A stretch of 64,000 nucleotides of DNA from Deltaproteobacteria bacterium (GCA_016210055.1 JACQUZ010000020.1:1-64000), one strand, 5' to 3'; positions 23,386 to 43,691 are shown, numbered from the stretch's first letter. Program-made: numbers and translations. The notes: a model not told the origin generated them from the letters alone.

Positions 23386-23392
23386 TTGGAGC

Positions 23393-25190: not shown

Positions 25191-25192
25191 GC

Positions 25193-26380: not shown

Positions 26381-27000
26381 GCGGGCACGGTTCGGGCAAA
26401 GTTTTCAAGGAGGCGCATTCCCCAGCGATGGCTTTTCTCTGGGTGGAATTGGACGCCGTACACGTTCCCGGAGCGAATGGCACACGTGAAATCAGCACCA
26501 TAGTTGGCGGAGGCGATCATGGCGTCCTGCGAGTCGGTCTCGAAATAGTACGAATGGAGGAAATAGAAGCGGGCGTCTTGACCCAGTTCCGCAAGAAGGC
26601 CGTCATTCCGGGCAGCCTTGATGTCGTTCCAACCCATGTGGGGCACGCGCAAGCCCCGACCATGAGAGGCTTCCGAGAATCTCCTCACTCGCCCGCTTAC
26701 CCAGCCCAAGCCGGGAAGATGTCCTTCTTCGCTTGTGCTGGCCAGCATCTGCATTCCGACGCAGACCCCAAGAAAAGGAACATGGCGACCGAGGACGCAC
26801 TCCTCCAGAGCCGGCCGCAATCCGGATCCATCGAGTCGTTTCATGGCTCCGTCGAACGCTCCGACACCCGGCATGATGATCCGGGTCGCCTTTTTCAGCT
26901 CTTCGGATGTCGAGGCGATGGATACAGGAATGCTAAGGCGGTGATAGACGTTCTGAAACGCCCTGACGTTTCCCAGCCCGTAGTCCAATATGGTGATCAT
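26377..27000 (-). CDS. HisH-like glutamine amidotransferase subunit (HisH2/WbuY type)
   Basis: A 207-residue class I glutaminase domain that releases ammonia from glutamine. The triad is intact: Cys80 in GVCVGMQML, His186 and Glu188 in VQFHPEKS. The start at 27000 gives the family N-terminus (MITILDYGLGNVRAF) and overlaps the amidotransferase gene by 4 bp. With no histidine genes nearby and a HisF partner lacking the histidine-pathway Asp, it most likely feeds ammonia to the sugar amidotransferase encoded immediately upstream. Confidence 0.93.
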   Translation of the reverse strand: MITILDYGLGNVRAFQNVYHRLSIPVSIASTSEELKKATRIIMPGVGAFDGAMKRLDGSGLRPALEECVLGRHVPFLGVCVGMQMLASTSEEGHLPGLGWVSGRVRRFSEASHGRGLRVPHMGWNDIKAARNDGLLAELGQDARFYFLHSYYFETDSQDAMIASANYGADFTCAIRSGNVYGVQFHPEKSHRWGMRLLENFARTVPA

Positions 27001-28139
27001 CGGAAGAGCCTCCGCTCCAGCCCCAGCCACCTCATCGCTTTCGCACCAAGCCCAATTAGGGCTCTCTTGTTCCGGTAGGAGTGATAGGTCCTGTTTTCGC
27101 CTTCGAACAGCTTCCGCAGCTCTTCAACTGGAAGATCGAGCTTCCTGGCCACGAACTCGAACTCCTTCGCATGAAAGTCGTCGTCGAGCACCGGCTGGGC
27201 GATTCGTCGCAGGGCCTCGTCTCTCGTCATCTGCTTGGTCATCACCAAGCTCGAAAAGTGAGCGCGCCGCCTTTCATAGCCAAATTTCTTCGGCAGCCAG
27301 AAGTCCTCGTAGAACCTGGTAAAGCGGGACTCGTGATGCTTGTGGTCGAACGGTTCCCACCCAAAGCGATCCGCCAAGTGTGTCTCGGCCTCTTTCTTGA
27401 CATAACGGGTGTGGTTTAGCGGCATGAAGACTTCCATGCCCAGAACGTACTTGTAGTAAAGCTTGTACTGGATAATGTCGACCATCGGAAAGGACTTCAG
27501 CGGGACCTTGCCGAATCGTCGGTGGATGTCTCGTACGAGCATCGTATCGATTCCAGGGTAGGCGCCCCACTCCTCCGGCTCCCTGCAGCATTCTGTCGAG
27601 AAGTTGGCTCCAGTCAGCACGTACTTGATCCGGTGCTTCACTGCGTAAGTGTAGAGGGCCGAGAAGAACGCCAAGTCCTGCGGATAGTCGATATCGGGGA
27701 CCTGCGCCTTGAAGAAAGCGAGCTGGAGATCCCTCATCTCCTCCCAGTTAATAACTTCTGTATGCAGGTCTAACCCGAGCCCGTCTACGAGTCGTTCAAT
27801 GTTTCGAACTGCTTGCTGGGAGTTCCAGCCAGCGTCCACGTGGAATAGGAGCGGGCGAAGGCCCATCTTCTCCTTGGCGACATAGGCCGCATAGGAGCTG
27901 TCTGGTCCGCCACTAATGCCGAGGATGCAGTCGAAGTCCCGACCCTTTCCGTCTTTCCGTATTTTCTCGGCAGCTGACGCAAGAACCTTCTCCCCATGCT
28001 CATCCGGGTGCCAGTTCGGAAGGATGTGGTTATGGTAATTCTGGCAATAGTCACACCGTCCGCGCTCGTCAAACGTAATATTCGAGTCGCTGGTGTCCAT
28101 GATGCAGTTGTTGCAAATTCGATATTCCCTGCGTGTCAT
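26997..28139 (-). CDS. N-acetyl-sugar amidotransferase (WbpG/WbuX/PseA family)
   Basis: A 380-residue ATP-dependent enzyme that converts a sugar N-acetyl group to an acetamidino group using ammonia. The N-terminus has a zinc-type set Cys9, Cys12, Cys29 and Cys32 with the family motif CIMDTSD; the PP-loop ATP site SGGPDSS is at 76-82. The start at 28139 has AAGAGG upstream and gives the usual family N-terminus; an ATG at 28205 overlapping the previous stop adds 22 residues. HisH- and HisF-like subunits follow. Substrate candidates are a 2,3-diamino uronic acid, as for P. aeruginosa WbpG, or a nonulosonic acid, as for PseA-like enzymes. Confidence 0.92.
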   Translation of the reverse strand: MTRREYRICNNCIMDTSDSNITFDERGRCDYCQNYHNHILPNWHPDEHGEKVLASAAEKIRKDGKGRDFDCILGISGGPDSSYAAYVAKEKMGLRPLLFHVDAGWNSQQAVRNIERLVDGLGLDLHTEVINWEEMRDLQLAFFKAQVPDIDYPQDLAFFSALYTYAVKHRIKYVLTGANFSTECCREPEEWGAYPGIDTMLVRDIHRRFGKVPLKSFPMVDIIQYKLYYKYVLGMEVFMPLNHTRYVKKEAETHLADRFGWEPFDHKHHESRFTRFYEDFWLPKKFGYERRRAHFSSLVMTKQMTRDEALRRIAQPVLDDDFHAKEFEFVARKLDLPVEELRKLFEGENRTYHSYRNKRALIGLGAKAMRWLGLERRLFR

Positions 28140-28197: not shown

Positions 28198-29472
28198 TTA
28201 AGCATGATGTCGTGTCCCCGAGTCGTCGCTTGCATGCAATTCGTTTCTATAATTGCGTAGTCTCTGCGAGCTCCGTGCGTGGAGCGATTGAAGAAACCCA
28301 TCCAGCGGGGCTGCCCAGCCCCGGTAGTCGAGACGTTCCCGCACCAGGCGAATCGCCGCCGCCCGCATTTCTTGACGCCGCTCGCTGGTGGTCCGAGCCA
28401 GGCGCGTGACGGCCTCAGCGAGGCCCTGTTCCGATAGCGAGCGGACGAGGAACCCCTCGCTTCCGTCCCTGATGTACTGGCTGAGGTCCGACGTGTCATT
28501 GAAGATGAGAGGAAGGCCGAGCCGTAGGAGCTCAGGTACCTTCGACGGGAAGCACGCCCGCGACCATGGCGCATCGTCTCGAAATAGGACAGCGGCGTCC
28601 TGTTCCGCAAGGGTTCGCAAAAAGGCACCTCTCTCGAGTCGCCCGTGGAACTCCACATGCCTGCGCCATCGTGGCCATTTTCCGTCGGACTGCTCGACGA
28701 GCTGAGTCTCACCACTTCCAAAGAGGTGGAGTTTCGCTCGGACTCCCGTGGTCTCGAGCAGGTCCATTGCCCCGAAGATGAGGTCCCACCGCTCTCTGTC
28801 CGGCGTGCCGACGAATGCAAGACGGATCGTTCCGTCCTGGCGATCGATGATTCTGCTGGGAGGCCAGTCCGCGTCCTCGGCATCGATGACCGGGGGCAGA
28901 ACCATCGACGAGCACCCTTTTTCGGAGTAGTGGCGGCAAATGAGGGAGCTAATCCCTATGACGCCGTCAAATCGCGGCAGAACGACTCGTATTCGAAAGA
29001 GGTCGTCAAGGTGCACCGGGCCGAATAGCCCACCGGGCCGATGTTTCGGATCAATCCATTCCGCGCAGTCACAGACGACCGGAACCCCGTGGGAGTGGCA
29101 AGCATCGCGCAGGCGCGCCAGGAAGAGCGATGTTCCTCCATAGGCAATCACTGCACAGGCACAAGCAAGGTCGTGGCGGGTAGCGGCCTCCAACATCTCC
29201 GATCCGGTCCGCACGTAGCGGAGGACCTTTGACCCAAGTCCTTTCGAAGGGCCCTTGGCCTCGTCGAAGACGCGATACTCGAATCCCTGGTGGTTGAGTG
29301 GTTCTGGATGGCTTGGCGTCTCATCGCCTGAGGGGAGACAAAAACATCGCATCTCGTACCCAGCGTGTCGCAAGGCCTTGCCCATGTTCAGGATCCTCAG
29401 CCCGCCTGCATCGCCATGCGGAAAGCGAAACGCGCCCACTACGATCACCGTCCTTCGAGGAATTCCACTCAT
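28198..29472 (-). CDS. GT4-type glycosyltransferase
   Basis: A 424-residue GT-B fold protein with a start at 29472 that overlaps the previous stop by 4 bp. The N-terminus has VVVGAFRFPHGDAGGLRIL, a glycine-rich acceptor loop, and the C-terminal half has AFVGTPDRERWDL, RDDAPWSRACFPSKVPELLRLGLPL (split here for reading) and a DLSQYIRDGSEGF segment, as in GT4 enzymes. Acceptor and sugar are unknown. It lies between the polymerase-like gene and the amidotransferase gene. Confidence 0.87.
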   Translation of the reverse strand: MSGIPRRTVIVVGAFRFPHGDAGGLRILNMGKALRHAGYEMRCFCLPSGDETPSHPEPLNHQGFEYRVFDEAKGPSKGLGSKVLRYVRTGSEMLEAATRHDLACACAVIAYGGTSLFLARLRDACHSHGVPVVCDCAEWIDPKHRPGGLFGPVHLDDLFRIRVVLPRFDGVIGISSLICRHYSEKGCSSMVLPPVIDAEDADWPPSRIIDRQDGTIRLAFVGTPDRERWDLIFGAMDLLETTGVRAKLHLFGSGETQLVEQSDGKWPRWRRHVEFHGRLERGAFLRTLAEQDAAVLFRDDAPWSRACFPSKVPELLRLGLPLIFNDTSDLSQYIRDGSEGFLVRSLSEQGLAEAVTRLARTTSERRQEMRAAAIRLVRERLDYRGWAAPLDGFLQSLHARSSQRLRNYRNELHASDDSGTRHHA

Positions 29473-30812
29473 TCGCGCGTCACCAGCGCCCCCATCGAGG
29501 CCCCAACAAGGAACGTCGTGGCTTCGACTCCAGGTGTCATCCAAAACCCCTCCGCCATGCTGAAGAGAAGGTATATGAAGACGAACGCCCAGGCGTTGAG
29601 CTTGAGCGGGTTCTTCAGGACCTTGCCGAACCTCCACAGAGCGACCACGACGCCTGCATAGAAGATCGTGAAAAATATCGCCCCTCCCTTGTGGAAGGCC
29701 CAGAACATCCCGATGTGAGCCGCGGTACTGCCAGGAATAAGATCCCCGGACAAGGTACCGACAAATGTTCTCACTGCGACCAACTCATGACTAGAATAGC
29801 CGCCCAGACCGGTCCCAAGCCATGTTTGGGAGCGGGTCATGCCGTCATAAAAGTAGCCCACTTCCCGAAAGCGAAATGTCTCATTTTCCGCGTCCGAGGC
29901 AGCCCAAACATCGTCGTACCTGTGGTCGCTGTCGACGATATCGCTCAATACCGATAGCTTTTCGAAGCGCGATCGAACCTCGTGACCCCTCTCGTCGCCA
30001 CTGCTCACGAGGACCGCGGTTCCTAGGATAAGGAGTCCAACCAGGCGCCGCCATTTCCGATGCCGACCTGTCCAGCCGGGTATTAGCCAATACGCAAAGA
30101 AGAAGACCACGATAACCCGCGATAGCGGTGCACGCTTGGCGAACAGGAACTGGCATACCCCATACAGGAGAAATGCCCAGGATACGAATTGCCGATGCAG
30201 GGCCGAACCAAGGCGTGAGGGCACTAGTACGAAATAAGTGGTCGGAATTAGGATGACCGACGCTGTGTACACGAGTCGCGCCAGCAGATCTTCTCTCGAA
30301 GAGACTCCAACGAGCTTGATGCCTGCCAACACGACAGGGATGCCCAGAAGCCCCAGTCCAAGAGGGTATACGCTGTCAATGATCTTCCAGCCTGCAGATG
30401 ACGTCCCGATGGCGATACCGAGCACGAAAAGCAACGTCGCACAAAGATCGGCTATGTAGGCGAGTTCAGGCTGGCCGTCGATCCACCCGGACGCAGCCAT
30501 CCACCCTCCCCAAAGGAGAAGGAAACCGTACCAGGGTCGAAACAACGGCAAGATTGCCGTGAATCGAAACCGCCCCGCGAGCAAGCTGGCGGCGAAGGAC
30601 GCGGCCAACAGGCACGTCGCAGCCACGTTGAGGTGCATTACCTTTAGCCATTCAAGCTGCCCTGTCCACTCCGTGACCATCCGGACTGGCCATGGGAGAA
30701 AAAGCAATATCAACCCACATGCCAAAAGGAAGTTCTGCGCCTTGTCGGAGCCGCGTAGCAGATCAGTCCTAGGCAGCCTTGGGGCATCCATGGAATGGGT
30801 GGCCTGTATCAT
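29469..30812 (-). CDS. wzy: O-antigen polymerase-like membrane protein (Wzy candidate)
   Basis: A 447-residue integral membrane protein with about ten to twelve hydrophobic helices (for example FLLACGLILLFLPWPV, FLLLWGGWMAASG, AFVFIYLLFSMAEGF) and a larger hydrophilic loop near residues 290-340 that contains YFYDGMTRSQTWLGTGLGGYSS, shown here as an approximate description of the loop. Size, topology and position directly after the flippase gene suggest the Wzy polymerase that joins repeat units in the periplasm. Sequence similarity within Wzy proteins is low, so the call rests on topology and context. It overlaps both neighbours by 4 bp. Confidence 0.8.
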   Translation of the reverse strand: MIQATHSMDAPRLPRTDLLRGSDKAQNFLLACGLILLFLPWPVRMVTEWTGQLEWLKVMHLNVAATCLLAASFAASLLAGRFRFTAILPLFRPWYGFLLLWGGWMAASGWIDGQPELAYIADLCATLLFVLGIAIGTSSAGWKIIDSVYPLGLGLLGIPVVLAGIKLVGVSSREDLLARLVYTASVILIPTTYFVLVPSRLGSALHRQFVSWAFLLYGVCQFLFAKRAPLSRVIVVFFFAYWLIPGWTGRHRKWRRLVGLLILGTAVLVSSGDERGHEVRSRFEKLSVLSDIVDSDHRYDDVWAASDAENETFRFREVGYFYDGMTRSQTWLGTGLGGYSSHELVAVRTFVGTLSGDLIPGSTAAHIGMFWAFHKGGAIFFTIFYAGVVVALWRFGKVLKNPLKLNAWAFVFIYLLFSMAEGFWMTPGVEATTFLVGASMGALVTRE

Positions 30813-32083
30813 GCCGCCGCCTTATTTCCTTCGTCTCGAGTCGCCATCCTGCACGCGATTACCGCGGCACCGGCTGCGACCACGGCTGATACCAGCCCAC
30901 CCCAGGCGACCCCCATTACCGGGCTATCTCCCCCTGCCATGAGCCCGACCGCAATGAGTTTCGCTGTGCCCACCAGCGCTATGAACCCATATAGGAGCGT
31001 CCATTTCTTCAGCGCCCTGAGAACGGAGGTTCCGGTGATCACCGAGAGGAGCATCCCGGTGAGCAGAGCGATCCTCATGGCGGGCAGCGCCGCGGAATAC
31101 TTCGGAACAAGGCGCTCGACCACCCATGGGAGGCAGACCCAACCAACCAGAACCAAGGGCACGCACAGGGCCAGCGCGAGGCCCATCGTCCAGAACGTCA
31201 TTCGGCTTAGCCGACTGGCATCACTTGTCTCCCCAAACCGGAACGACATCCTTGGATACACATAACTTGAAAGGGCCGCAGGGAGGACTTCCATGGCATG
31301 GGAGACAGCCAACGCGGGCGCAAAGATGCCGACCATCGCCTCTCCGCCCCGCCTGAAGAGAAACACGTTCTCGAGGCCTCGCACCAGCGTGAGGAGGTAG
31401 GCACTGATGAAGAGGTGGAACCCTGTCCGCCACAGGAGTGACCAGGCTTCGGCGTGAAAAGCTGGACGAATCCTTAGCGGGCGCTTGGCGTGGCAAATCC
31501 CGGCAAGAATCACCGACTGAAGAACGGCGTGGAGGCAAAAGCCGTTATACCCCCACGCGTACGCGAAGACTGGCATGAGAAGCGCCAACCCAGCTTGAGC
31601 CAGCTGAATGCCGGCGAGCGCCTTAAAGCTCTTATTTGAGCGAAACGTCCCGGTCAGGTACGAAAAGTAGAAGCCCGTCCCTGCGGCGATGGACCTGGCG
31701 AGCGCTGCGAGCTGCCATCCGGGCTTCCCGGAGTCGATGGCCAAGCCTGCGATGGCAAATCCAGCAAAGACCATGGCCCCCGTGAGAATGGCATGCAGCA
31801 AGGCAGTGGCAGCGACCTGCCGACCGCGCTCCTCTTCTCCCCTACCCAAGAAGTAGGGTAGCTCGCGGTTCATGGCGTTGGGGATGCCCATGCGGAGGAC
31901 GGACGCGTAGCCCTCCGCGAGGAGCATCATCTGCCAGATACCCATGAGCTCAGGAGGGATCCAGCGGAGCGCTGCAACGCCTGCCAGCAACGTGGCACCG
32001 TTAATGGCCATCGACGATGCAGCGAAATAGGCAAGGACGCTGTGGCCGGTGAGCCGCAACCGGAGCGGATGAAGAAGCTTCAT
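30809..32083 (-). CDS. wzx: Wzx-type polysaccharide flippase
   Basis: A 424-residue membrane protein of the MOP/PST flippase type with about twelve predicted helices (STLLAGVAALRWI-like and MFWTMGLALALCVPLVLV-like segments). It is expected to move undecaprenyl-linked repeat units across the inner membrane. The start at 32083 overlaps the stop of the frameshifted methyltransferase by 4 bp; 21 upstream in-frame residues lack support. It is followed by the Wzy-like gene, which is typical of Wzx/Wzy clusters. Confidence 0.88.
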   Translation of the reverse strand: MKLLHPLRLRLTGHSVLAYFAASSMAINGATLLAGVAALRWIPPELMGIWQMMLLAEGYASVLRMGIPNAMNRELPYFLGRGEEERGRQVAATALLHAILTGAMVFAGFAIAGLAIDSGKPGWQLAALARSIAAGTGFYFSYLTGTFRSNKSFKALAGIQLAQAGLALLMPVFAYAWGYNGFCLHAVLQSVILAGICHAKRPLRIRPAFHAEAWSLLWRTGFHLFISAYLLTLVRGLENVFLFRRGGEAMVGIFAPALAVSHAMEVLPAALSSYVYPRMSFRFGETSDASRLSRMTFWTMGLALALCVPLVLVGWVCLPWVVERLVPKYSAALPAMRIALLTGMLLSVITGTSVLRALKKWTLLYGFIALVGTAKLIAVGLMAGGDSPVMGVAWGGLVSAVVAAGAAVIACRMATRDEGNKAAA

Positions 32084-32947
32084 TCTTTTTTGAAACACAC
32101 CAAAGCGTTTTTTACACAGAAGTCCTCTCGCCCGCGCTCCGGCCAACGGCGCCTCAATTGCGGAAGAATCCCGTTCACCACCGCATCATCATATCGGGAC
32201 TCGTGGAGAACCGTCGTTTCGAATCCGATTTCGCGCGCCATGGCGAGAACTTGGTAATGGCCTATTCGGTTTTCATCGTCACGATTGGAACCCATGGCTT
32301 CCCATAGCCATTTCGGGACGGTGAGGAATTGAAGAGGGTGTTCTGCCGTCCGCCAGACTCCATGGGCAGAATAGTCAATCCTTTGAACTGCGCGCCCTCC
32401 TGGATTCAATAGAGTCCATATGGCCTGGAGGGCGGTGCGAACATCCTCCAGCTGCTCGAATACGTCGAATCCAAGGACTAAGTCCACCTTCTCGATATTG
32501 GACTCCTGGAGATCTTCAAGCGGGCAGTGCACCCGTCGAACCCACCCTGTAGCTTCGTCCGAGAATGCCTGCAAGGCCGCGCTGGCGAAGTGCGTTGGCC
32601 AAATCCGGCGATTCATCGAGCAAGGCTTCGTACAGTTTTCCAGCATGCTTGCCGAATACATCCGCCGGAAATCGATCAATGGCGACATAGCGGTCTGCAC
32701 CTGCGCCTAATACGAACAGGCCCAATGGGATTGCGTCCCCTGGTCCGATCTCAGCGACTGACTTACCCGTGAGTTTCTCGCCGGCCCAGCCGGTCGAAAG
32801 CAAGTCAAATTGACTACGCGGCTTTTGCGTATTTGCCCATACGTTGGTTCTCGGTAGCCGGGCGCGCCATCGACGAACCGGCGCTACGCCCATGGCTATG
32901 TTCACGAGTATTTCGCGTGAAATCTCAATCAGCGTGGGGTTCCCCAT
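32080..32947 (-). pseudogene. Class I methyltransferase gene split by a frameshift
   Basis: Two overlapping frames together make one SAM-dependent methyltransferase. The upstream frame, from the ATG at 32947, holds the SAM-binding motif (VAEIGPGDAIPLGLF) and ends at 32516 after off-frame residues. The downstream frame, readable from about 32,600 to 32,080, carries the rest (VDLVLGFDVFEQLEDV, LLNPGGRAV). The shift falls near 32,560-32,605 and equals one extra base (or two missing). The ends are intact: the start overlaps the preceding gene by 23 bp and the stop overlaps wzx by ATGA. It may be a recent inactivation, phase-variable site or a sequencing error. Substrate would be a sugar in the glycan. 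Confidence 0.75.
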
Positions 32948-34489: not shown

Positions 34490-35299
34490 CTAGTTCGACT
34501 TGTGAAGCAGGTAGAAACCCGTGGCCCCCATCAGCGGGCCGCCTCTTTCGAGTGCCAAGGAACGCGAAACCTTTGCCATCCACTCAAGGAGCCGTGGGAC
34601 GCGAGTATTGTCGATTCCCGCGTCACGGAGCGCGTTCTGCAAGCGCTTGTCGAGATCGACGAGCATCTGGTCGCCATTGCCCTTCGAGAAGTCGCAGCTA
34701 TCCACGCGCTCGAGAATCATGCCCGCTTCTGCAGCCATTGCCTCGATATCGAACGGCGAAAGGAAATGGATGTCCGTAAGCGACATGGGGATGTTCTGGA
34801 GAAGCTGCAACGTCATCCACACGAGCCCCCGGATATTGATGAAACATGGGCAGGTAAGGACGACCTTCCCGTTGTCCTTCAGCGCTCGCGCCATGACCTT
34901 TAGGGCAAGCACGGGCGAATCCATGTGCTCGAGCGTACCGAGGGAAATGATGCAATCCACGGGCTCGCTCCAGGCCTCAAGCGTCATGCAGCGGAACTCG
35001 AGGTTCTCGCGCGAGTGCTCTTTCCTGGCCTTGCTGATCGCTTCCTCGGCGTAATCGATACCGGTGACGAACCGCGCCCCCCTGGCGGCGATCTCCGCAG
35101 CGACACGACCGGTCCCGCACCCCACGTCGAGAACTCGCTTCCCCGCCCAGTCCACGGCGCTGAGCACCAGCTGATTCGCTTCTGAGACGTCCGCTCCATT
35201 AGAAAACTTGCTAAAGAACTTATCCTCCCCGTCTCGGTAAACCCGATTGTAAAGATCTCCCAGCTCCGCGTTTGTTCGCATTGGAGAGCTCCCTGTCAC
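34490..35299 (-). CDS. Class I SAM-dependent methyltransferase
   Basis: A 269-residue enzyme with motif I VLDVGCGTGR near residues 56-65, an acidic motif II TGIDYAEEAI and a post-I IISLGTLEHMDSP segment. The first codon is GTG at 35299, overlapping the NeuB-like stop (GTGA); an ATG at 35281 is the alternative. It is expected to methylate a sugar or small molecule in glycan synthesis. Substrate is not evident. It is coupled to the NeuB-like gene before it and followed after 5 bp by the GT-B gene. Confidence 0.88.
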   Translation of the reverse strand: MTGSSPMRTNAELGDLYNRVYRDGEDKFFSKFSNGADVSEANQLVLSAVDWAGKRVLDVGCGTGRVAAEIAARGARFVTGIDYAEEAISKARKEHSRENLEFRCMTLEAWSEPVDCIISLGTLEHMDSPVLALKVMARALKDNGKVVLTCPCFINIRGLVWMTLQLLQNIPMSLTDIHFLSPFDIEAMAAEAGMILERVDSCDFSKGNGDQMLVDLDKRLQNALRDAGIDNTRVPRLLEWMAKVSRSLALERGGPLMGATGFYLLHKSN

Positions 35300-36267
35300 T
35301 TGTCGTCACGGAAAGAGGTATCTTCCTCCCAGTTGTATACAGTCCTACCGCCCACCCGTGACGCGAAGCGTCCTCGGTAGTAGTCGCGGTTAAGAAACTC
35401 CTCGTGGGAAAGCGGTCGCCGGGCATCCCCCAAGGCGACTGCCCAGCCCGGAATCGAGTCTGCTACAATTCGCATCCGTTCTCTCCGCGATAGGCTCGCG
35501 AAGGACCGTAGCTGAGCCAGCTGGGCAGGTGAAATGGAAACAGGCCCGTCCTTTGTCTTATCCTCCGGCAGGATCGTGAAATGACGTTCTATCCAGTCGG
35601 CGCCCAACGCCAGAGCGATCTGACTCGCCTGAATCCCGAGCTTGGAGACGGACGTGTGATCGCTCCAACCGACCTCGGGTGAATAGCGACGAAGCCAATT
35701 CATGCGCCGGAGGTGACATGAGTCAAGTGGGTTGGGATAACGCGTGACGCAATGGAGGAAGACGGCACGCTTTCCCGCAAGTTCCCGGGCGGCGACTGCT
35801 ACCTCTTCTTCAAAGGTTGCCCCCGTCGATACGACCACGGTTGACCACCACCTTGCCGCATCGCGAAGAAGTGGCGGCGAGCCGCAGTCATAACTGGCTA
35901 TTTTCACCGCTTCATAGCCAAGGTCCTTCACCTCACGGGCCGCGCTCCGCGTGAAAATGGTCGTCATGGGGGCAACTCCGGCGCGACGGCATTCCTCAAC
36001 GAACCAAGCCTCGTCGTCGAGGCTAAGGTCCAGCTTCGAAAGCCGCACCAGCTCGTCTTCGAACGGGCGCCGGATGACCTTTACTGTGCCATCTGGGGCG
36101 ATCTCGCCCGTGTCGAAACGCTCGCGATGGGTGAGCTCTGATGACCGAATCGCCTGAAGCTTCACGTAGGTGGCGCCGTTCTCTGCTGCCGCGTGGATCA
36201 TTTCCTGGAGGTACTTGCGGTCGCCACAGTGGTTCTGGCAGCACTCGGCAATGATGACTGGTGTCAT
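35296..36267 (-). CDS. NeuB-family synthase lacking a recognisable SAF domain
   Basis: A 323-residue TIM-barrel protein of the N-acetylneuraminate/legionaminate synthase family, which condenses PEP with an amino sugar to give a 2-keto nonulosonic acid. Motifs: IIAECCQNHCGD at 5-16, YVKLQA near 34-39, VKIASYDCG, VGWSDHT and WIERHFTI. The C-terminal antifreeze-like SAF domain that closes the active site in usual NeuB (about 345 residues) is not recognisable: after LSRRERMR the tail has no family SAF pattern. The start at 36267 overlaps the dehydrogenase stop (ATGA); 36276 is also in frame. It lies in a coupled NeuA-dehydrogenase-NeuB order. Confidence 0.85.
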   Translation of the reverse strand: MTPVIIAECCQNHCGDRKYLQEMIHAAAENGATYVKLQAIRSSELTHRERFDTGEIAPDGTVKVIRRPFEDELVRLSKLDLSLDDEAWFVEECRRAGVAPMTTIFTRSAAREVKDLGYEAVKIASYDCGSPPLLRDAARWWSTVVVSTGATFEEEVAVAARELAGKRAVFLHCVTRYPNPLDSCHLRRMNWLRRYSPEVGWSDHTSVSKLGIQASQIALALGADWIERHFTILPEDKTKDGPVSISPAQLAQLRSFASLSRRERMRIVADSIPGWAVALGDARRPLSHEEFLNRDYYRGRFASRVGGRTVYNWEEDTSFRDDK

Positions 36268-37262
36268 GGAAGGCATCCCAGGTGTGGAGCGGGAATCGGC
36301 GCGCGGATCCCCGCCAAGAATTTCTCGGTCACGAATCGGCGAGTCGCTTCGATGGACTCGCGGCCGTACCCGCCCATGTGAGGCGTGAGGACGAGATTCG
36401 AATGGTGGCGCGCATAATGCACCATTGGATGCTCGGCAGGCACCCTTCCAGCCCAAATGCCGTCGCCGCATAGAACGTCCAGGGCTGCCCCACCGAGGTG
36501 ATGACGTTCCAAGCTCTCGAGGAGAGCCTTTTCGTCGACTAGCTCTCCACGGGCCGTATTCACCAGGAGCGCCCCCTGCTTCATGGCCGCTAGGCGTTCG
36601 GCGTTCAAAAAACCCCGGGTCCACTCGTCCAAGGGCAGGTGGAGGCTCACGATGTCTGAAGTGGCCAGGAGCTCGTCGAGCCCAACCGGCTGCACCGGAC
36701 CTTCGGCGGCGGCAACGGCATTGGGATCCCTGTCAAAGCCGCAGGCTCGCATGCGGAATGCGGCACCGAACCCAGCGACCATTGCGCCGACTCGCCCAAC
36801 TCCCACTAGCCCGAGTTGCTTGCCATGAAGCTCCGAGGAAAGGAAGGGCTCTCGACGCCAGTTCTCCGCAAGGACATCCGCATGGGCTTGGGGGAGCCGG
36901 CGAACAAGGGCAAGGAGAAGTGCCCACGCGTGCTCGGCGGTGCTCCGCACGTAACGCAGGAAATCGATCTCGCCCCGCAGGCTTATCACCGTCACTCGAG
37001 CCCGCTCAAGCTCCTCGAGGTCCAAGTGATCGACGCCGGTCGTCGGCGTCACCACCCACTTGAGGGTCGGACAAGCTTGCGTGACCGCGGCGCCGACCGA
37101 GAGCCCCAAGCGAGTAAAGAGCGCCCCATAGGGGGCGCCTTCCAAGGTCGTAACAAGCTGAGCCTCGTCGGCCACTTCGGCGTAGTCTACCTGAACCACC
37201 TCACCCAGGCGGGCGCGTAGCTCGGCTCCGTAGCGAAGCGGCTCGACGTTCAGCACTCTCAC
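36264..37262 (-). CDS. D-isomer-specific 2-hydroxyacid dehydrogenase
   Basis: A 332-residue NAD-dependent dehydrogenase that interconverts 2-keto and D-2-hydroxy acids. The dinucleotide motif GLVGVGRVGA is at 151-160, the substrate-binding arginine in NTARGE is Arg238 and the catalytic His295 lies in TPHMGG. The usual acidic residue after LDVF is in LDVLCGDG, with Asp267 rather than Glu. It overlaps neuA before it and the neuB-like gene after it by 4 bp each, an unusual insertion in a nonulosonate cassette. Substrate is unknown. Confidence 0.9.
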   Translation of the reverse strand: MRVLNVEPLRYGAELRARLGEVVQVDYAEVADEAQLVTTLEGAPYGALFTRLGLSVGAAVTQACPTLKWVVTPTTGVDHLDLEELERARVTVISLRGEIDFLRYVRSTAEHAWALLLALVRRLPQAHADVLAENWRREPFLSSELHGKQLGLVGVGRVGAMVAGFGAAFRMRACGFDRDPNAVAAAEGPVQPVGLDELLATSDIVSLHLPLDEWTRGFLNAERLAAMKQGALLVNTARGELVDEKALLESLERHHLGGAALDVLCGDGIWAGRVPAEHPMVHYARHHSNLVLTPHMGGYGRESIEATRRFVTEKFLAGIRAPIPAPHLGCLP

Positions 37263-37960
37263 GTGTCAGCTCCGCGAGAGGCAAGCCATTCAGCGAAAAG
37301 GAAATCGCGCTCTGAATCAATGTTGACGGCCCGGTTTTCGGGAACCAACCATCTTCTGGAATCGTTACCCTTGAAAGACCCAGCCATTAGCACCCGGCGC
37401 CTGGTGAGGTAGATGCAACCGGCACGCAGGTACATGGGGCGTAGCCGCTGCCGCGGCATGTTCTCCTCGGCTTCACAAAATGGTGGATCCACGAGTCGAT
37501 CCCCCTCCAGGTACTTCATTCGAGCGGGATGGAATCCACCGACGTCCACCACGCTGATGACGCTGTCGGCACCGGTCCTCTCGAGAAGCCCGATGCTCCC
37601 ATCGATGTCCGAAGCGGTCCTGAATGGAGTAGTAGGCTGGAGAAGAAGCGTGGCATCGTACTCGCCACCTCCCTCGAGCTCCTCGACCGCTTTCAAGGCA
37701 TGCAGCACGACCTCGATGGACTTGGCCGTGTCCGTGGCGTAGATGGCGGGCCGGACAAAGGGCACATCACCTCCAAGAGACCTCGCAATCTCGGCAATCT
37801 CTGGGTCATCGGTCGATACAACAGTTTTAGCTAGACGCGAGCTCGCTCGAGCAGCCTTAATCGTCCAGCCAATCAAGGGAATACCGCAAAGCGGTCGAAT
37901 GTTCTTTCGGGGCACCCCTTTCGATCCACCCCGGGCAGGGACGACACCCAAGACCCGCAC
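37259..37960 (-). CDS. neuA: CMP-sugar synthetase (NeuA family)
   Basis: A 233-residue cytidylyltransferase that activates a nonulosonic acid, or a similar 3-deoxy-2-keto sugar acid, with CTP. The N-terminus has the nucleotide-binding loop PARGGSKGVPRKN at 8-20, followed by VVSTDDPEIAEIA and LLLQPTTPFR, all typical of NeuA/PseF/LegF. It is 3 bp downstream of the CBS-dehydrogenase gene and overlaps the hydroxyacid dehydrogenase gene by 4 bp. The exact acid, such as neuraminic, legionaminic or pseudaminic acid, cannot be told from sequence. Confidence 0.92.
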   Translation of the reverse strand: MRVLGVVPARGGSKGVPRKNIRPLCGIPLIGWTIKAARASSRLAKTVVSTDDPEIAEIARSLGGDVPFVRPAIYATDTAKSIEVVLHALKAVEELEGGGEYDATLLLQPTTPFRTASDIDGSIGLLERTGADSVISVVDVGGFHPARMKYLEGDRLVDPPFCEAEENMPRQRLRPMYLRAGCIYLTRRRVLMAGSFKGNDSRRWLVPENRAVNIDSERDFLFAEWLASRGADT

Positions 37961-37963
37961 GGT

Positions 37964-39736
37964 CTAGCTCCCCACCGAGGACACGCAGTAGCCCAAGGCC
38001 ATGTATACGCACGGGCAGGACGAGAGCACGTCCTCCTCGCGGAACATGTGCCAGCCATCGAACAAGATACCCGGGGCCCTAAGTGCCCTGGCCAGTGAGA
38101 ACACATCCGTCTTCTCGTAGCTGGGATGGTTATTGAGCACAAGAACCGCGTCTTTGCCCGCGAAACCTCCGGGAAGCGTTTCGGGAATCAGCCCCTCGTC
38201 CTGGATGGTTGCTGGCGCGACCACGGGGTCGTGACCAAACACCCGCCCCACCTTGCCGCGGAGCATCCTTGCGATCTCGACGCCGGGGGAGCTCCGGCAG
38301 TCGCCCGTCTCTGGGCGGCCCTTGAATGCTAACCCACAGACCAGGACATCGCACCTTGCTGGATCCTTGCCGAGCTTCTTGATCTGATTCAGAACCGCGT
38401 CTACGACAAATCCCGGCATTGCCTCGTTAATCCGCCTGCCGTGCTCCATGAGGGTCTGCGTGATGGGTGCGCCTTTGGCGGCGGCGGCGAAGATGTAAGG
38501 GTCCTTTGTTAGACAGGGCCCCCCAACTCCAGGGCTGGGGAGAGGCACCGGATCGCGGGGATACCCTTGGTTGGCAGCCTTGATGGCTTCGACGGCGTCG
38601 ACGCCGTAGCGCGCGGAGAGTTGGGCAACTTCGTTCGAGAACGAGAAGATGAGATCTCGGAACGAGTTATTGATGAGCTTGACCATCTCGGCGGTCTCCA
38701 GAGAGGCAACCCGGACGATCGTGGGGGTGATTTCCCGGAACAGCGCTACGGCTGCCTCTGCACTGTCCTCATTGAGTCCGCCAATCACCTGAGGAAGCGC
38801 TCGGAGCTCGCTCTGGGCCCGACCCTCGACCGTTCGCTCTGGAGCAAAGGCCAAGTGGAAATCACTCCCCCCGCGCATCCCAGTCAGCTCCTGGAGCATC
38901 GGCAGGACGACGTTGCGCGTCGTTCCCACTGGCACGGTTGATCGCAGCACGACGAGTCCACCCCGACGCAGAAGTGGAGCGATCATCTCGCATGACCGAC
39001 GCAAAGACGTTAGGTCTGGAGTGGGGAGCTTGCCTTCCGTGGAAGGCTTGACGGGGGTACCCACCGCGACGATAAAGACGTCCGCCGCCTCGGGCATGTC
39101 GGTGCGAGATCGGAAATTGCGCCCTTGATACTCCCTGAGCATCTCGGGCAACCCGATCTCGTGGATGTAGCTTTGGCCGTTTTGGAGTGCCGTCACTAGA
39201 GTCGTGTCGGTGTCGACACCCGTCACGTTATAGCCGGAGTCGGCCATGATTAGGCCCAAGGTAAGCCCGACATACCCCAAGCCAACGACCACGATGTGTC
39301 GGTGGGTAGCAACCCTCTGCTCCCAGAGCTGGTGATAGTCGATCACTCGCGTGGGACGCCGGTCCTCGTCCACCATGACGATCTTTCCCAAGAAGAGGTG
39401 AGAAGAACGTCCCCGGCGCTCCAGCTCCGCTGGAAGACGCTCAAGCACTTCGCGCAATGCAATCCCCTCGGGAAAAACTATCGGGTCCGTGGTCATGGCC
39501 TGCCCCGCAGTGCAGCCGAGCCCCCCATGGCGGAGAATTGCCCGGCGCACGTCCCCGTCCGTCAGAGTCCCTGTCACGCGCCCTCGCTTGTCGGTAACCA
39601 GGGCAATGCCGACCGGTAAACCGTGCTCTTTCGCACCCGCGTGAATCCGCAGGACCTCGAGCAACGGGGTCTCTGGGCCAATACAAAGGGGCGCCACCGA
39701 CGGCTTCGAGCCGTTGCACTTCGTGTTTCTAGTCAT
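37964..39736 (-). CDS. Nucleotide-sugar dehydrogenase with an N-terminal CBS-like extension
   Basis: A 590-residue fusion. Residues about 14-140 look like a pair of CBS motifs (ALVTDKRGRVTGTLTDGDVRR, then AMTTDPIVFPEGIALREVL, then KIVMVDEDRRP). Residues 147-590 form a complete UDP-sugar 6-dehydrogenase: GLGYVG at 152-157, APERTVEGRA, a catalytic Cys408 in GVGGPCLTKDP, and a C-terminal NAD-sharing domain (GLAFKGRPETGD). This half resembles WecC/WbpA-type enzymes that make UDP-HexNAc uronic acids. CBS pairs usually bind adenine nucleotides and could give allosteric control. The start at 39736 overlaps the previous stop by 8 bp; 39787 is also in frame. Confidence 0.9.
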   Translation of the reverse strand: MTRNTKCNGSKPSVAPLCIGPETPLLEVLRIHAGAKEHGLPVGIALVTDKRGRVTGTLTDGDVRRAILRHGGLGCTAGQAMTTDPIVFPEGIALREVLERLPAELERRGRSSHLFLGKIVMVDEDRRPTRVIDYHQLWEQRVATHRHIVVVGLGYVGLTLGLIMADSGYNVTGVDTDTTLVTALQNGQSYIHEIGLPEMLREYQGRNFRSRTDMPEAADVFIVAVGTPVKPSTEGKLPTPDLTSLRRSCEMIAPLLRRGGLVVLRSTVPVGTTRNVVLPMLQELTGMRGGSDFHLAFAPERTVEGRAQSELRALPQVIGGLNEDSAEAAVALFREITPTIVRVASLETAEMVKLINNSFRDLIFSFSNEVAQLSARYGVDAVEAIKAANQGYPRDPVPLPSPGVGGPCLTKDPYIFAAAAKGAPITQTLMEHGRRINEAMPGFVVDAVLNQIKKLGKDPARCDVLVCGLAFKGRPETGDCRSSPGVEIARMLRGKVGRVFGHDPVVAPATIQDEGLIPETLPGGFAGKDAVLVLNNHPSYEKTDVFSLARALRAPGILFDGWHMFREEDVLSSCPCVYMALGYCVSSVGS

Positions 39737-40817
39737 GGGTTTTCCCGAGGTCGATTCTCCGGACGAGCCATTGAGCTGCTCGGTCATAGCCGTCCTTTTG
39801 TCCCAGCTTCATCGCGCTAAGAATCGCAATTCGTTCACTTCCCATCGTGATTCGGCCGAGCGCGGCGCTGACGTCCTCGTCCGTCGGAGTCGATCCAAGG
39901 TAAACTCCGAGCCCAAGGGCCTCAACCGCCCGCCCGTTGTGGACCATCTCTGAATTGCCGGGCTCGTGCACGCATGCCATCGGAACCCCAACAGCAATGC
40001 AGTCGTGAATCGTTCCCATGGCCGGCCGACATATGGCAGCGGCACACGACCGGAGCGCCGAAGAGGCGAACCCTGCTTGCACCTTCGTGCCTCCCTGAAC
40101 ACGGGTGCCTATCAGCTCGATCCCCGCAATCGACGCTGCAGCAGACCTGGCCCGCGCAAGGCAGTCGTCTGCCGCTCCAGAAGCACCTCCAAGCACCGCC
40201 ACTCGTTGCCCACTCGGGGCCGACGAATACGCGTCCGTCTCTTGGGCCTCGGCACACATCCAAGGTAATTCGATCGCCGTCGTTCGCTCCAGCATGTCCG
40301 GCATCGCGAAGCCATTCACGCAAAGCGCAGGAGGGTAATGACGAGCCAAGAGGTCCCGCTCTTGTCGGACAAAAGAGCGCACGCTCGGCTCGTGAGGGAA
40401 TGCGGCTTCGAGCACGGTGGACCACAGAAAGGAGCCTTGAATGATTGCGTCGGGCCTTAGGGCAAGTACCTGTGGGAGATTGTCACTCACTACGAAGTCG
40501 GCCCTCTCCAGGATTCGGCTGCCTTCAAGCCGGTTCATCCATGATTGGAGACGCCCATCTGAGTATTTCGCGGGGTCGCTGCTCCAGCCGACACCTGGCG
40601 CCATGATCCCATATATCCATTCGACACGACCATCCTTTTCAAGATTGGCAACCATTGGGAGGTCGCGCATTTTCGCAAGCTGCCATGCCTCGCAAGCGAC
40701 AAGGACCTTCGTATTGGGGCGACGAGTCAGCACTCGATGAAGGATTTCGAGACACCGGCGGAAATGCCCCAGACCGTTTGCGCATACCAGGAAAGCAATG
40801 GTTACGCTTTCAGGCAT
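39729..40817 (-). CDS. MurG/PseG-like GT-B protein
   Basis: A 362-residue protein with an N-terminal GLGHFRRCLEI motif (residues 15-25), resembling the GxGHxxR loop of PseG-type nucleotide-sugar hydrolases and MurG-like transferases. The C-terminal domain contains AICRPAMGTIHDCIAVGVP, like the donor-binding region of family GT28. It could be a UDP-sugar hydrolase feeding the NeuB-like synthase, or a glycosyltransferase. No residue decides between them. The start at 40817 overlaps the aminotransferase stop by 8 bp; 40826 is a second ATG. Confidence 0.72.
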   Translation of the reverse strand: MPESVTIAFLVCANGLGHFRRCLEILHRVLTRRPNTKVLVACEAWQLAKMRDLPMVANLEKDGRVEWIYGIMAPGVGWSSDPAKYSDGRLQSWMNRLEGSRILERADFVVSDNLPQVLALRPDAIIQGSFLWSTVLEAAFPHEPSVRSFVRQERDLLARHYPPALCVNGFAMPDMLERTTAIELPWMCAEAQETDAYSSAPSGQRVAVLGGASGAADDCLARARSAAASIAGIELIGTRVQGGTKVQAGFASSALRSCAAAICRPAMGTIHDCIAVGVPMACVHEPGNSEMVHNGRAVEALGLGVYLGSTPTDEDVSAALGRITMGSERIAILSAMKLGQKDGYDRAAQWLVRRIDLGKTHD

Positions 40818-41961
40818 CGTGATCATGAGAAGACGCCCGCCTTCGTCGCACGGATCGCACCTCTGCCGCGACCCGGTCTCGTTCCTCAACGGTCAAGCTC
40901 GACCCCGATGGCAGGCAAAGCCCTCGCTCGAACAGATCCCGGGCTACGTTTCCCCCGCGGACCCGACACGCGGAAAACACCGGTTGCAAGTGCATGGGCT
41001 TCCAGATGGGGCGCGATTCGATGTCGCGCGACTCGAGATGAAGGCGAATGTCCTCTCGCGTCGCCCCGAACGCACAAGCGTCGACGGTGATACACGTTAG
41101 CCAGCCGTTCGATCGCCCATACGTGGCTTCGGGCATGAAATCAATCCCCGGCAGATCGAGGGCCTTGCGGTAATAGTCTCTGCTTGCGCGCCGCTCTGCC
41201 ACCCGCTGATCGAGGACCCTCAATTGCCCTCGCCCCACCGCCGCAAGGAGGTTGCTCAGGCGATAGTTGTATCCAATCTGCGAGTGCTGGTAGTGCGGCG
41301 ATGGGTCGCGCGCTTGGGTGGCGAGGAAACGGGCGCGATCGATCCAGTCCTTGCGGTTGGCGACCAGCATCCCGCCACCGCTCGTGGTGATTATCTTGTT
41401 GCCGTTGAACGAGAACACCCCAAGCTCACCGAGCGAGCCGGCCGAACGGCCCTTGTACGAGGCACCGAGCGCTTCGGCAGCGTCTTCGAGAATTGGAACC
41501 TCGTAACGGACGCAGGCCGCTCGGATTGGGTCGTAGTCGGCGCACTGACCAAAGAGGTCCACCACGATAACCGCCTTGGGCAGCTTCCCGCGCCTAGCAG
41601 AAACCTCGAGCTCCTCGGCTAGGAGCGCGGGGTCCATGTTCCAGGTAGCGCGATCGCAGTCGATGAATACCGGACGTGCGCCGACGTAGGTGATCGGATT
41701 CGCTGACGCAGAAAACGTCAGGGTTGAGACGAGGACTTCATCGCCGGCCCCAGCGCCAAGGATCTGGAGCGCAAGATGCAGCGCCCCCGTGCCACTCGAC
41801 AGCGCGACTGCGTGAGAAACGCCAACGCGTGCGGCGACCTCCTGCTCAAATGCGTCAACATGCGGCCCGAGGGGCGCGATCCAGTTGGAGTCGAACGCCT
41901 CGACGAGCAGCTTCCGCTCGTGCTCGCCCATATGGGGTGGGGAAAGATAGATCCGGCCCAT
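40810..41961 (-). CDS. PLP-dependent sugar aminotransferase, PglE/LegC/EpsN-like
   Basis: A 383-residue DegT/DnrJ/EryC1 enzyme. It begins with IYLSPPHMGEHERKLLVEAF, close to PglE-type N-termini, has the SSGTGALHLAL loop near 55-65, Asp160 in LEDAAEALGA, and the PLP lysine 189 in SFNGNKIITTSGGG. This motif is typical of enzymes aminating C4 of UDP-4-keto-6-deoxy-HexNAc. The matching dehydratase is at 15197. It is the second sugar enzyme after the carbamoyltransferase in transcription order. No PglD-like acetyltransferase is visible in the window. Confidence 0.92.
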   Translation of the reverse strand: MGRIYLSPPHMGEHERKLLVEAFDSNWIAPLGPHVDAFEQEVAARVGVSHAVALSSGTGALHLALQILGAGAGDEVLVSTLTFSASANPITYVGARPVFIDCDRATWNMDPALLAEELEVSARRGKLPKAVIVVDLFGQCADYDPIRAACVRYEVPILEDAAEALGASYKGRSAGSLGELGVFSFNGNKIITTSGGGMLVANRKDWIDRARFLATQARDPSPHYQHSQIGYNYRLSNLLAAVGRGQLRVLDQRVAERRASRDYYRKALDLPGIDFMPEATYGRSNGWLTCITVDACAFGATREDIRLHLESRDIESRPIWKPMHLQPVFSACRVRGGNVARDLFERGLCLPSGSSLTVEERDRVAAEVRSVRRRRASSHDHDA

Positions 41962-41981: not shown

Positions 41982-43691
41982 TTATTTCCTAATGATGCAG
42001 TTCCCCATCACCAGAGTGGTTAGGCCGGAGGTGTAGAACGTGCGGATGGCATCTGTTGGCGAGCAGACGATGGGTTCACCTTTGACATTGAACGACGTGT
42101 TCAGGACCACGGGTACTCCAGTCTTCTTCTCGAACGCCGAAAGCAGCGCGTGGTACAGCGGGTTCGTTTTCTTCGAAACCGTTTGAAGGCGACCCGAGCC
42201 ATCGTTGTGGGTCACCGCCGGGATGACCGCTCTCTTTTCGGGGAGTATCGGATACACCTTCTCCATGAAAGGTACCAAGGTCTGGGGCTCGATGTCGAAG
42301 TACTCTCGGACGTGTTCTTCGAGAATCGAAGGAGCAAAGGGCCTGTACGGCTCGCGGTATTTCACGGCCGCGTTGATCTTCTCCTTCATCTTGGGGTCCC
42401 GTGGATCTGCCAGGATGGACCGGTTGCCGAGGGCGCGCTGCCCGAACTCCATGCGGCCCTGGAACCAGCCAACGACGTGTCCTTCCGCCAGGAGCACTGC
42501 GGTCTCCTCGCAAGCGTTGGTGCTCGTGCGGTACGGAATTCCGTACTTCTTGAGCGTCGATTCGATCTCCTGCTGGGAATAGCCGGGGCCCCAATAGGAG
42601 TGCGAAAGGTCGATCGCTTGCCGTGGATGCCCGAGCACGCCGTAATAGAGCTGCAGGGCGGACCCGATGCAGTTGCCCGTGTCGTCGGGCGAAAAGGGGA
42701 CAAAGAGATTCTGGAAGGGCGTGTTTCGGAGTACCGCGCCGTTCGCCACCGAATTCATGAGGGCGCCGCCCGACAGGCAGAGATTCGGACATCGGGTCAC
42801 TTCATGAAGGTGCCTGAGGCAGTGGAAAAGCAGCTCCTCGAAGGCGTGCTGCGCTCCGGCTGCGATGTCGTAGTGCTTCTGCTCCAGATCGTCGTCTCCT
42901 CGGCGAGGCTCTCCGAAAAGCTCTCGGAACTTCTCGCCGTACATCTTCCCGCTCTCGAAGTTGTAGTGGTTCAAGTACTCGTAGTTGAGCTGGTACTGCC
43001 CCTCTTCGCGGAGCGTGTAGAGCTTGCGGAAGGCTTCCGCGAATCGCTTGGGATCGCCATAGGCGGACATTCCCATGACCTTCCACTCGTCGGCGTCGGG
43101 GTTGTAGCCAAGGAACTGGGTGAGCGCCGAGTAAAAGCCCCCGAGGGTGTTCGGGAAGGCCATGTCTCGAAGCGTCTCGATCCGGTTGCCCTCTCCGGTC
43201 TTCCAGCTCGTGCAGGTGTTTTCGCCATACTGGTCCACCGTGAGGATTGCCGCCCGCTCGAAAGGAGACCCGTAGTACGCCATCGCGGCGTGGCAGTCGT
43301 GATGGGTCAGATAGTGAACGTCGAAGGACTTGGACCCATCGAGCCGAAATACCTGCTCGGTGTGACGCACTTGTGCCGGATGAAGGCGATTGAAGACCTG
43401 GTTGGGTATCGCGTAGAGCCAGTGCCCTGGGTAAGGCACTCTTTCGGAGAGGCCCCCGCGAAACCTTGCTGCCACATTGATGCCGGGGTTGAAGCCCATG
43501 GCCAGGGCATCGACCTTCTCAAAGGTAATGCCTGCGGCATCCAGGCAGTAACGAATCGCCCTCACGGGGAAACCGCGGGAGTAGTGCTGCCGGTCGAGAC
43601 GTTCCTCTGGACAGGCTGCAACGAGATGACCGTCCCTGATGAGCGCCGCCGATGCGGTCAGACCTGAGTAATGGATCCCGATGATGTACAT
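41982..43691 (-). CDS. Carbamoyltransferase, NodU/CmcH family
   Basis: A 569-residue enzyme that transfers a carbamoyl group from carbamoyl phosphate to a sugar hydroxyl by way of a carbamoyl-adenylate. The N-terminal Kae1-like ATPase fold has IIGIHYSGLTASAALI and the metal-binding HHDCH at 130-134 region, SVDQ-like LTVDQYGENT and GGALMNSVANG. The C-terminal YrdC-like part has WFQGRMEFGQRALGNRSI and LNTSFNVKGEPIV. It looks complete. O-carbamoyl groups decorate nodulation factors, antibiotics and some O-antigens. It lies 115 bp after the Wzc gene, the largest gap within the operon. Confidence 0.95.
   Translation of the reverse strand: MYIIGIHYSGLTASAALIRDGHLVAACPEERLDRQHYSRGFPVRAIRYCLDAAGITFEKVDALAMGFNPGINVAARFRGGLSERVPYPGHWLYAIPNQVFNRLHPAQVRHTEQVFRLDGSKSFDVHYLTHHDCHAAMAYYGSPFERAAILTVDQYGENTCTSWKTGEGNRIETLRDMAFPNTLGGFYSALTQFLGYNPDADEWKVMGMSAYGDPKRFAEAFRKLYTLREEGQYQLNYEYLNHYNFESGKMYGEKFRELFGEPRRGDDDLEQKHYDIAAGAQHAFEELLFHCLRHLHEVTRCPNLCLSGGALMNSVANGAVLRNTPFQNLFVPFSPDDTGNCIGSALQLYYGVLGHPRQAIDLSHSYWGPGYSQQEIESTLKKYGIPYRTSTNACEETAVLLAEGHVVGWFQGRMEFGQRALGNRSILADPRDPKMKEKINAAVKYREPYRPFAPSILEEHVREYFDIEPQTLVPFMEKVYPILPEKRAVIPAVTHNDGSGRLQTVSKKTNPLYHALLSAFEKKTGVPVVLNTSFNVKGEPIVCSPTDAIRTFYTSGLTTLVMGNCIIRK

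Follow-up and report, generated by a model that had tools for sequence, protein, structure and literature searches.

Why does a gene for a D-2-hydroxyacid dehydrogenase lie between those of a NeuA-like cytidine monophosphate (CMP)-sugar synthetase and a NeuB-like synthase that lacks the SAF domain? The question is raised by a stretch of 64,000 nucleotides from a Deltaproteobacteria bacterium (GCA_016210055.1, JACQUZ010000020.1:1-64000), the whole of which is called the window here. It is highly probable that these genes belong to a distinct SAF-less ulosonate module of which the dehydrogenase is a part, and the best explanation overall is that a variant ulosonate pathway, with the steps proposed below, is built around the cassette (probability roughly 0.45). 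The three genes are as follows.

37259..37960, minus strand: NeuA/PseF-like CMP-sugar synthetase (P0003, 233 residues; PF02348, CTP_transf_3, 4.6e-19)
36264..37262, minus strand: D-2-hydroxyacid dehydrogenase (P0002, 332 residues; PF02826, 2-Hacid_dh_C, 2e-51; PF00389, 3e-10)
35296..36267, minus strand: NeuB-like synthase without SAF (P0001, 323 residues; tail motif LNRDYYRGRFAS; PF03102, 2.1e-45)

A first, sequence-only reading of the window had described a run of NeuA, dehydrogenase and 323-residue NeuB-like synthase genes with overlaps of 4 bp, and its coordinates and overlaps are correct: GTGA at 37262-37259 contains the NeuA stop and the dehydrogenase start, and ATGA at 36267-36264 the dehydrogenase stop and the synthase start. 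Its listing omitted a third 4-bp overlap, GTGA at 35299-35296, in which the synthase stop meets the start of a methyltransferase gene.

Data from domain searches and structure prediction agree on the loss of SAF. The NeuB barrel (PF03102, 155.5 bits against a cut-off of 22.1) was the only domain found in P0001, with no SAF match at E<=0.1 in the Pfam search. The AlphaFold model, built from 57 family members, has a mean predicted local distance difference test score of 96.7 and consists of the barrel and a short helical tail, in which helices at 261-271 and 288-297 are followed by a small hairpin. Structure prediction thus bears out the earlier description of a NeuB-like synthase without a clear SAF domain, since the model shows no hidden SAF fold. 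The top Foldseek match was Neisseria meningitidis NeuB (1xuu, TM-score 0.69 by query), followed by other NeuB-type synthases and then by 3-deoxy-D-arabino-heptulosonate 7-phosphate (DAHP) and 3-deoxy-D-manno-octulosonate (Kdo)-8-phosphate synthases. In an alignment with SpsE and ordinary NeuB, the family-specific tail motif (NRDYYRGRF, conserved as NRDYYRGRFAS) sits where SAF begins. The SAF-less chain ends soon after this motif, and in most phage copies right after the motif core.

Residues E25, K53, Q55, K129, S132, Y186, S213, H215, E234, H236 and D247, which serve phosphoenolpyruvate (PEP) binding, metal binding and catalysis, are kept in 54/54 cellular proteins of the SAF-less family. In the same set, position T110 holds T or S, Asp replaces E134 in every protein, and R48, R67, E72, R75, N293 and R300 are invariant; nearly all viral copies keep these six. 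R67 was placed near N74 of N. meningitidis NeuB by alignment in a gapped region. In the N. meningitidis enzyme, Arg314 is the sole SAF residue in the active site and contacts N-acetylmannosamine (ManNAc), and the R314A variant is inactive (PMC6795526). The SAF-less family has lost this arginine, and its other sugar-side residues are lost or altered. Retention of the PEP and metal residues, together with loss of Arg314 and the appearance of new invariant residues, suggests that the PEP half of the site has been preserved and the sugar half rebuilt. Moreover, equivalog scores of P0001 fall far short of the required values (NeuB_NnaB, 139.6 against 399.65 bits; PseI, 118.6 against 340.25 bits). 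Because both SAF with its Arg314 and the family score are lacking, P0001, judged by its sequence, does not belong among the N-acetylneuraminate synthases, though the module would work like a NeuB/NeuA pathway.

Comparison with known synthases leads to the same placement. P0001 shares with the NeuB/SiaC family (with PseI, LegI and SpsE) the TIM barrel, the PEP, metal and most catalytic residues and an adjoining CMP-sugar synthetase gene, but differs in the Asp at E134, the new invariant arginines, the tail motif and its separate clade. The Leptospira borgpetersenii protein 6ncs, a short NeuB homologue, is similar in length, at about 290 residues, and came second among NeuB-type proteins in the profile search; however, it has 24% identity to the model query, and the match, poor over the N-terminal half, does not reach the tail motif. 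Kdo-8-phosphate and DAHP synthases are likewise PEP-dependent synthase barrels without SAF, but at about 14% identity they stand well behind the NeuB-type proteins.

Is the loss of SAF an oddity of one protein? The loss is real, but it defines a large family, which the sequence-only reading overlooked. A genome scan gave 62 cellular loci and a viral scan 15. In the synthase tree, in which the contrast rows were ordinary NeuB from the window's own class, a branch supported at 100/100 separates 64 SAF-less rows from 13 ordinary NeuB rows. This single clade spans Myxococcota, Bacteroidota, Actinomycetota, Planctomycetota, Chloroflexota, the candidate phyla radiation (CPR), Thaumarchaeota, Pelagibacterales, Prochlorococcus and metagenomic phages, and the closest named relatives carrying the synthase are Deltaproteobacteria/Myxococcales assemblies. 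Searches of phage records and plasmids returned distant matches only.

The dehydrogenase is linked to this synthase well beyond the window. Partners were counted within 4.5 kb of SAF-less NeuB in the 62 cellular loci, many of them on short contigs, so that all counts are lower bounds; values in brackets refer to the 35 loci in which each flank is 4 kb or longer. NeuA was found in 55 (33), the GT-B protein described below in 38 (24), a nucleotide-sugar dehydrogenase fused to a CBS domain in 35 (21), the 2-hydroxyacid dehydrogenase in 25 (12), the related methyltransferase in 8, that is, 7 besides the window (8), and HAD hydrolases (4) and LarA (5) in 6 each. One of the 25 dehydrogenase loci, L024, was read by eye through masked stretches. 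Among the 14 viral loci having the synthase, 11 carry the dehydrogenase upstream of it, and within 1.5 kb on each side of ordinary NeuB neither a 2-hydroxyacid nor a CBS-type dehydrogenase was found (0/18 loci). Hence, with 25/62 cellular and 11/14 viral loci against 0/18, the pairing is no chance neighbourhood. Its recurrence in many phyla and in phages also disproves the possibility, raised with the earlier claim, that the order would be absent in relatives.

Pairwise divergences of NeuB and the dehydrogenase were correlated (r=0.89 over 33 loci, 0.81 for cellular loci alone), as were those of NeuB and the CBS-dehydrogenase (r=0.90, 32 loci); none of 2000 permutations reached the observed values, and shared descent of host lineages also feeds such correlations. 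In P0002 the catalytic (PF00389) and nicotinamide adenine dinucleotide (NAD)-binding (PF02826) domains are both above cut-off, the NAD motif GVGRVG and the catalytic Arg and His are present, and the catalytic Glu position is occupied by Asp, being Glu or Asp across the family. The cytidylyltransferase domain of P0003 scores 69.5 bits (PF02348, cut-off 22.6), and its nearest NCBIfam model is PseF, at 140.8 bits below the required 205.7. In a Kuenenbacteria locus (L060:10976-13534), NeuA, a methyltransferase and a 2-hydroxyacid dehydrogenase form a single protein of 852 residues.

Gene arrangements vary around the pair. Metagenomic viral contigs (L086-L100) carry the dehydrogenase and NeuB together with a class I/II aminotransferase, a radical SAM protein and a HAD-nucleotidyltransferase fusion, some also with a tail sheath gene. 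In Acidimicrobiia (L035, L041, L042, L043, L083), NeuB comes after a gene for an FAA-hydrolase, and the other strand carries the genes for the dehydrogenase, NeuA and GT-B.

Thaumarchaeota have another 2-hydroxyacid enzyme in this place. There, NeuA forms a fusion with a Lar_N domain (PF09861, 1.2e-54; L047, L049, L050, L055 and L058, with NeuB and the gene downstream) that has the catalytic His/His and cofactor Lys motifs, GTHR and MPHPYAGFSGGGK. The domain shares its GTHR and PHPYAGFSGGGK motifs with the LarA superfamily of nickel-pincer 2-hydroxyacid racemases and epimerases, but differs from it in being fused to a CMP-sugar synthetase. Among 121 genomes of the thaumarchaeal order, SAF-less NeuB occurs in 9 and a LarA open frame of >600 residues in the same 9, five of which were search seeds; in these five the fusion is the sole LarA. 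LarA and the 2-hydroxyacid dehydrogenase never occur in the same locus among the 62. The LarA-NeuA and NeuA-methyltransferase-dehydrogenase fusions thus suggest that 2-hydroxyacid chemistry is linked with the activated sugar or with a precursor of it. LarC is present in all 9 NeuB-bearing genomes, yet 78 of the other 112 have it too, and it was rejected as a marker of the fusion; across the order, LarA occurs in 18 genomes and LarC in 87. A LarA family protein, with a proposed role in lactate metabolism, has been reported from deep-sea Thaumarchaeota (PMC8397731). The fusion with NeuA is apparently undescribed, since the LarA papers searched by keyword do not mention it. In L047, L049, L050, L055, L057, L058 and L085, the gene immediately upstream of the synthase in Thaumarchaeota encodes a xylose isomerase-like TIM barrel (family F19) and is on the other strand.

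The three-gene cassette of the earlier reading is real, but that reading missed that the module also includes a nucleotide-sugar dehydrogenase fused to a CBS domain, a GT-B protein and a methyltransferase. An aminotransferase gene stands upstream in the same run and is no constant member.

40810..41961, minus strand: LegC-like DegT aminotransferase (P0007; PF01041, 5.2e-93; TIGR04181, 371.7 bits against a cut-off of 420)
39729..40889, minus strand: GT-B protein of the MurG/MJ1255/UGT kind (P0006, 386 residues counted from the first start; weak GT28_C and MJ1255 matches)
37964..39787, minus strand: fusion of a CBS domain and a nucleotide-sugar dehydrogenase (P0005, 607 residues; CBS and UDPG_MGDP_dh N, central and C domains; TIGR03026, 326.5 bits)
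34490..35299, minus strand: S-adenosylmethionine (SAM) methyltransferase (P0004, 269 residues; Methyltransf_25, 5.2e-19)

Transcription on the minus strand would run from the LegC-like aminotransferase through GT-B, CBS-dehydrogenase, NeuA, D-2-hydroxyacid dehydrogenase and NeuB-like synthase to the methyltransferase. The catalytic motif of P0005 is GVGGPCLTKD. Among 95 relatives, SAF-less NeuB occurs in 3, and the full-length CBS fusion in those three exclusively, a coincidence of 1 in 138,415 if the genes were independent, uncorrected for kinship. For P0006, the PseG equivalog gave no match, and weak matches for three relatives. The best matches of its structure model are GT1-type enzymes, and a PseG-like hydrolase was demoted to a mere possibility; from the model, P0006 looks more like a glycosyltransferase than a nucleotide-sugar hydrolase.

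How could these enzymes work together? We infer the substrate and product from conserved residues, gene family and context. SAF-less NeuB would join PEP to an aldose through the usual metal and PEP site. The aldose is probably no ManNAc-type sugar, because the family lacks the SAF arginine that grips the ManNAc N-acetyl group and has gained invariant arginines elsewhere. Where the CBS-dehydrogenase is present, the aldose may be a hexuronate supplied by this nucleotide-sugar dehydrogenase. In standard NeuB chemistry, a hexuronate and PEP give a C9 ulosonate with a carboxylate at C9. The exocyclic C8 hydroxyl beside this second carboxylate would make the far end a 2-hydroxy acid, and tailoring there would leave CMP activation at C2 unblocked. 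The D-2-hydroxyacid dehydrogenase, or in Thaumarchaeota the LarA epimerase fused to NeuA, would alter that centre, and NeuA would then make the CMP-sugar for a Wzx/Wzy-type surface polysaccharide. The product is most likely a CMP-activated ulosonic acid from a non-ManNAc aldose, perhaps dicarboxylic and hexuronate-derived. The hexuronate and C8 version as stated is tentative, with somewhat less than even odds. Rather doubtful is a wider proposal of an undescribed class of nonulosaric (dicarboxylic) CMP-sugars, made from hexuronates by SAF-less synthases and tailored at C8 by the D-2-hydroxyacid dehydrogenase in bacteria and phages or by the NeuA-fused nickel-pincer LarA epimerase in Thaumarchaeota.

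Acinetobacter elaABC offers a precedent for oxidoreductase-linked C8 variation in a nonulosonate pathway, the putative oxidoreductase ElaA being tied to the C8 variant 8-epilegionaminic acid (PMC9676051), but the published description, by which the systems were compared, includes no 2-hydroxyacid dehydrogenase. The earlier notion of a modified pathway to an unusual acidic sugar was right in outline and incomplete. Its proposal that the dehydrogenase works on a precursor may hold, as may action on the ulosonate itself. That the pathway might be undescribed agrees with the literature search, which found no paper describing the gene set and nothing relevant on 'nonulosaric' sugars or SAR11 synthases.

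Several observations weigh against the proposed pathway. Release of the sugar from its nucleotide could be assigned to no enzyme, the GT-B protein being more glycosyltransferase-like, and inversion of a centre by a D-specific dehydrogenase alone cannot be assumed. The searched Acidimicrobiia and Pelagibacterales genomes with SAF-less NeuB contain no full-length CBS-dehydrogenase, which was rejected as a universal partner for this reason. Acidimicrobiia and phages carry the 2-hydroxyacid dehydrogenase with no CBS enzyme seen, Pelagibacterales have NeuA, GT-B and NeuB together but neither dehydrogenase, and about ten cellular loci have the CBS enzyme but neither the 2-hydroxyacid dehydrogenase nor LarA close by.

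Three other explanations compete with the variant pathway. A Kdo- or heptulosonate-like ulosonate could be formed from a phosphorylated or short aldose by PEP condensation, HAD dephosphorylation and NeuA activation, with the dehydrogenase acting on a small 2-hydroxyacid precursor. HAD hydrolases adjoin SAF-less NeuB in L022, L039, L044, L046, L052 and L081, phages carry the HAD-nucleotidyltransferase fusion, and Kdo-8-phosphate and DAHP synthases, likewise SAF-less, are the next Foldseek matches. However, HAD was found in only 6/62 cellular loci, NeuB, PseI and SpsE are nearest by sequence and fold, and the CBS-dehydrogenase is left unexplained. This route is unlikely. Still less probable is a reading in which D-lactate, D-glycerate or another D-2-hydroxy acid, formed by the dehydrogenase or LarA, is added to the sugar as an N-acyl or ether substituent. 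Both enzyme families handle such acids, 2-hydroxyacid chemistry is their shared feature and N-acyl variants of nonulosonates are known (PMC9676051), but the conserved neighbour families examined include no acid-activating ligase or acyltransferase, and fusion to NeuA better suits direct action on the sugar.

Very unlikely, finally, is an ordinary sialic, legionaminic or pseudaminic acid pathway with a shortened NeuB and an incidental dehydrogenase. The LegC-like aminotransferase and PseF-like NeuA of the window would fit it, and the solved structure 6ncs (290 residues) shows that short NeuB homologues exist. Yet P0001 lies far under the NeuB_NnaB and PseI cut-offs, the SAF-less synthases form a distinct clade, and the dehydrogenase linkage is recurrent, even fused to NeuA in L060. 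In addition, another contig of the same genome (C165:4153-6002; L002, L127) already carries a separate ordinary NeuB adjoining PseG above the curated cut-off. Epimerase_2 (NeuC/LegG type) above cut-off is missing in 9/28 genomes with SAF-less NeuB, several of them incomplete, and substrate supply by NeuC/WecB was rejected as a general feature on this count.

The surroundings of the module in the window look like a Wzx/Wzy-type polysaccharide locus, with a Wzc-like gene, genes for UDP-N-acetyl-L-fucosamine (UDP-L-FucNAc), a WbuX amidotransferase, a priming glycosyltransferase and further glycosyltransferases. A NodU-type carbamoyltransferase gene (41982-43691) lies directly upstream of the module.

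21119-28118: UDP-L-FucNAc genes (FnlA, WbjC-like reductase, WecB-type epimerase) and WbuX N-acetyl sugar amidotransferase
29469-30812 and 30809-32146: two membrane-protein-like genes, read by sequence alone as putative polymerase and flippase

Together, the recurring module probably makes an undescribed surface sugar. SAF has been regarded as belonging to the active site of sialic acid synthases, and it is absent from this large natural family, which is truncated at a precise point and occurs in abundant marine lineages (Pelagibacterales, Prochlorococcus and Thaumarchaeota), in poorly cultured phyla and in phages. The link with two unrelated 2-hydroxyacid enzymes, both of which also occur as NeuA fusions, points in a testable way to an unknown surface sugar, and the nickel-pincer cofactor may have a role in glycan biosynthesis.

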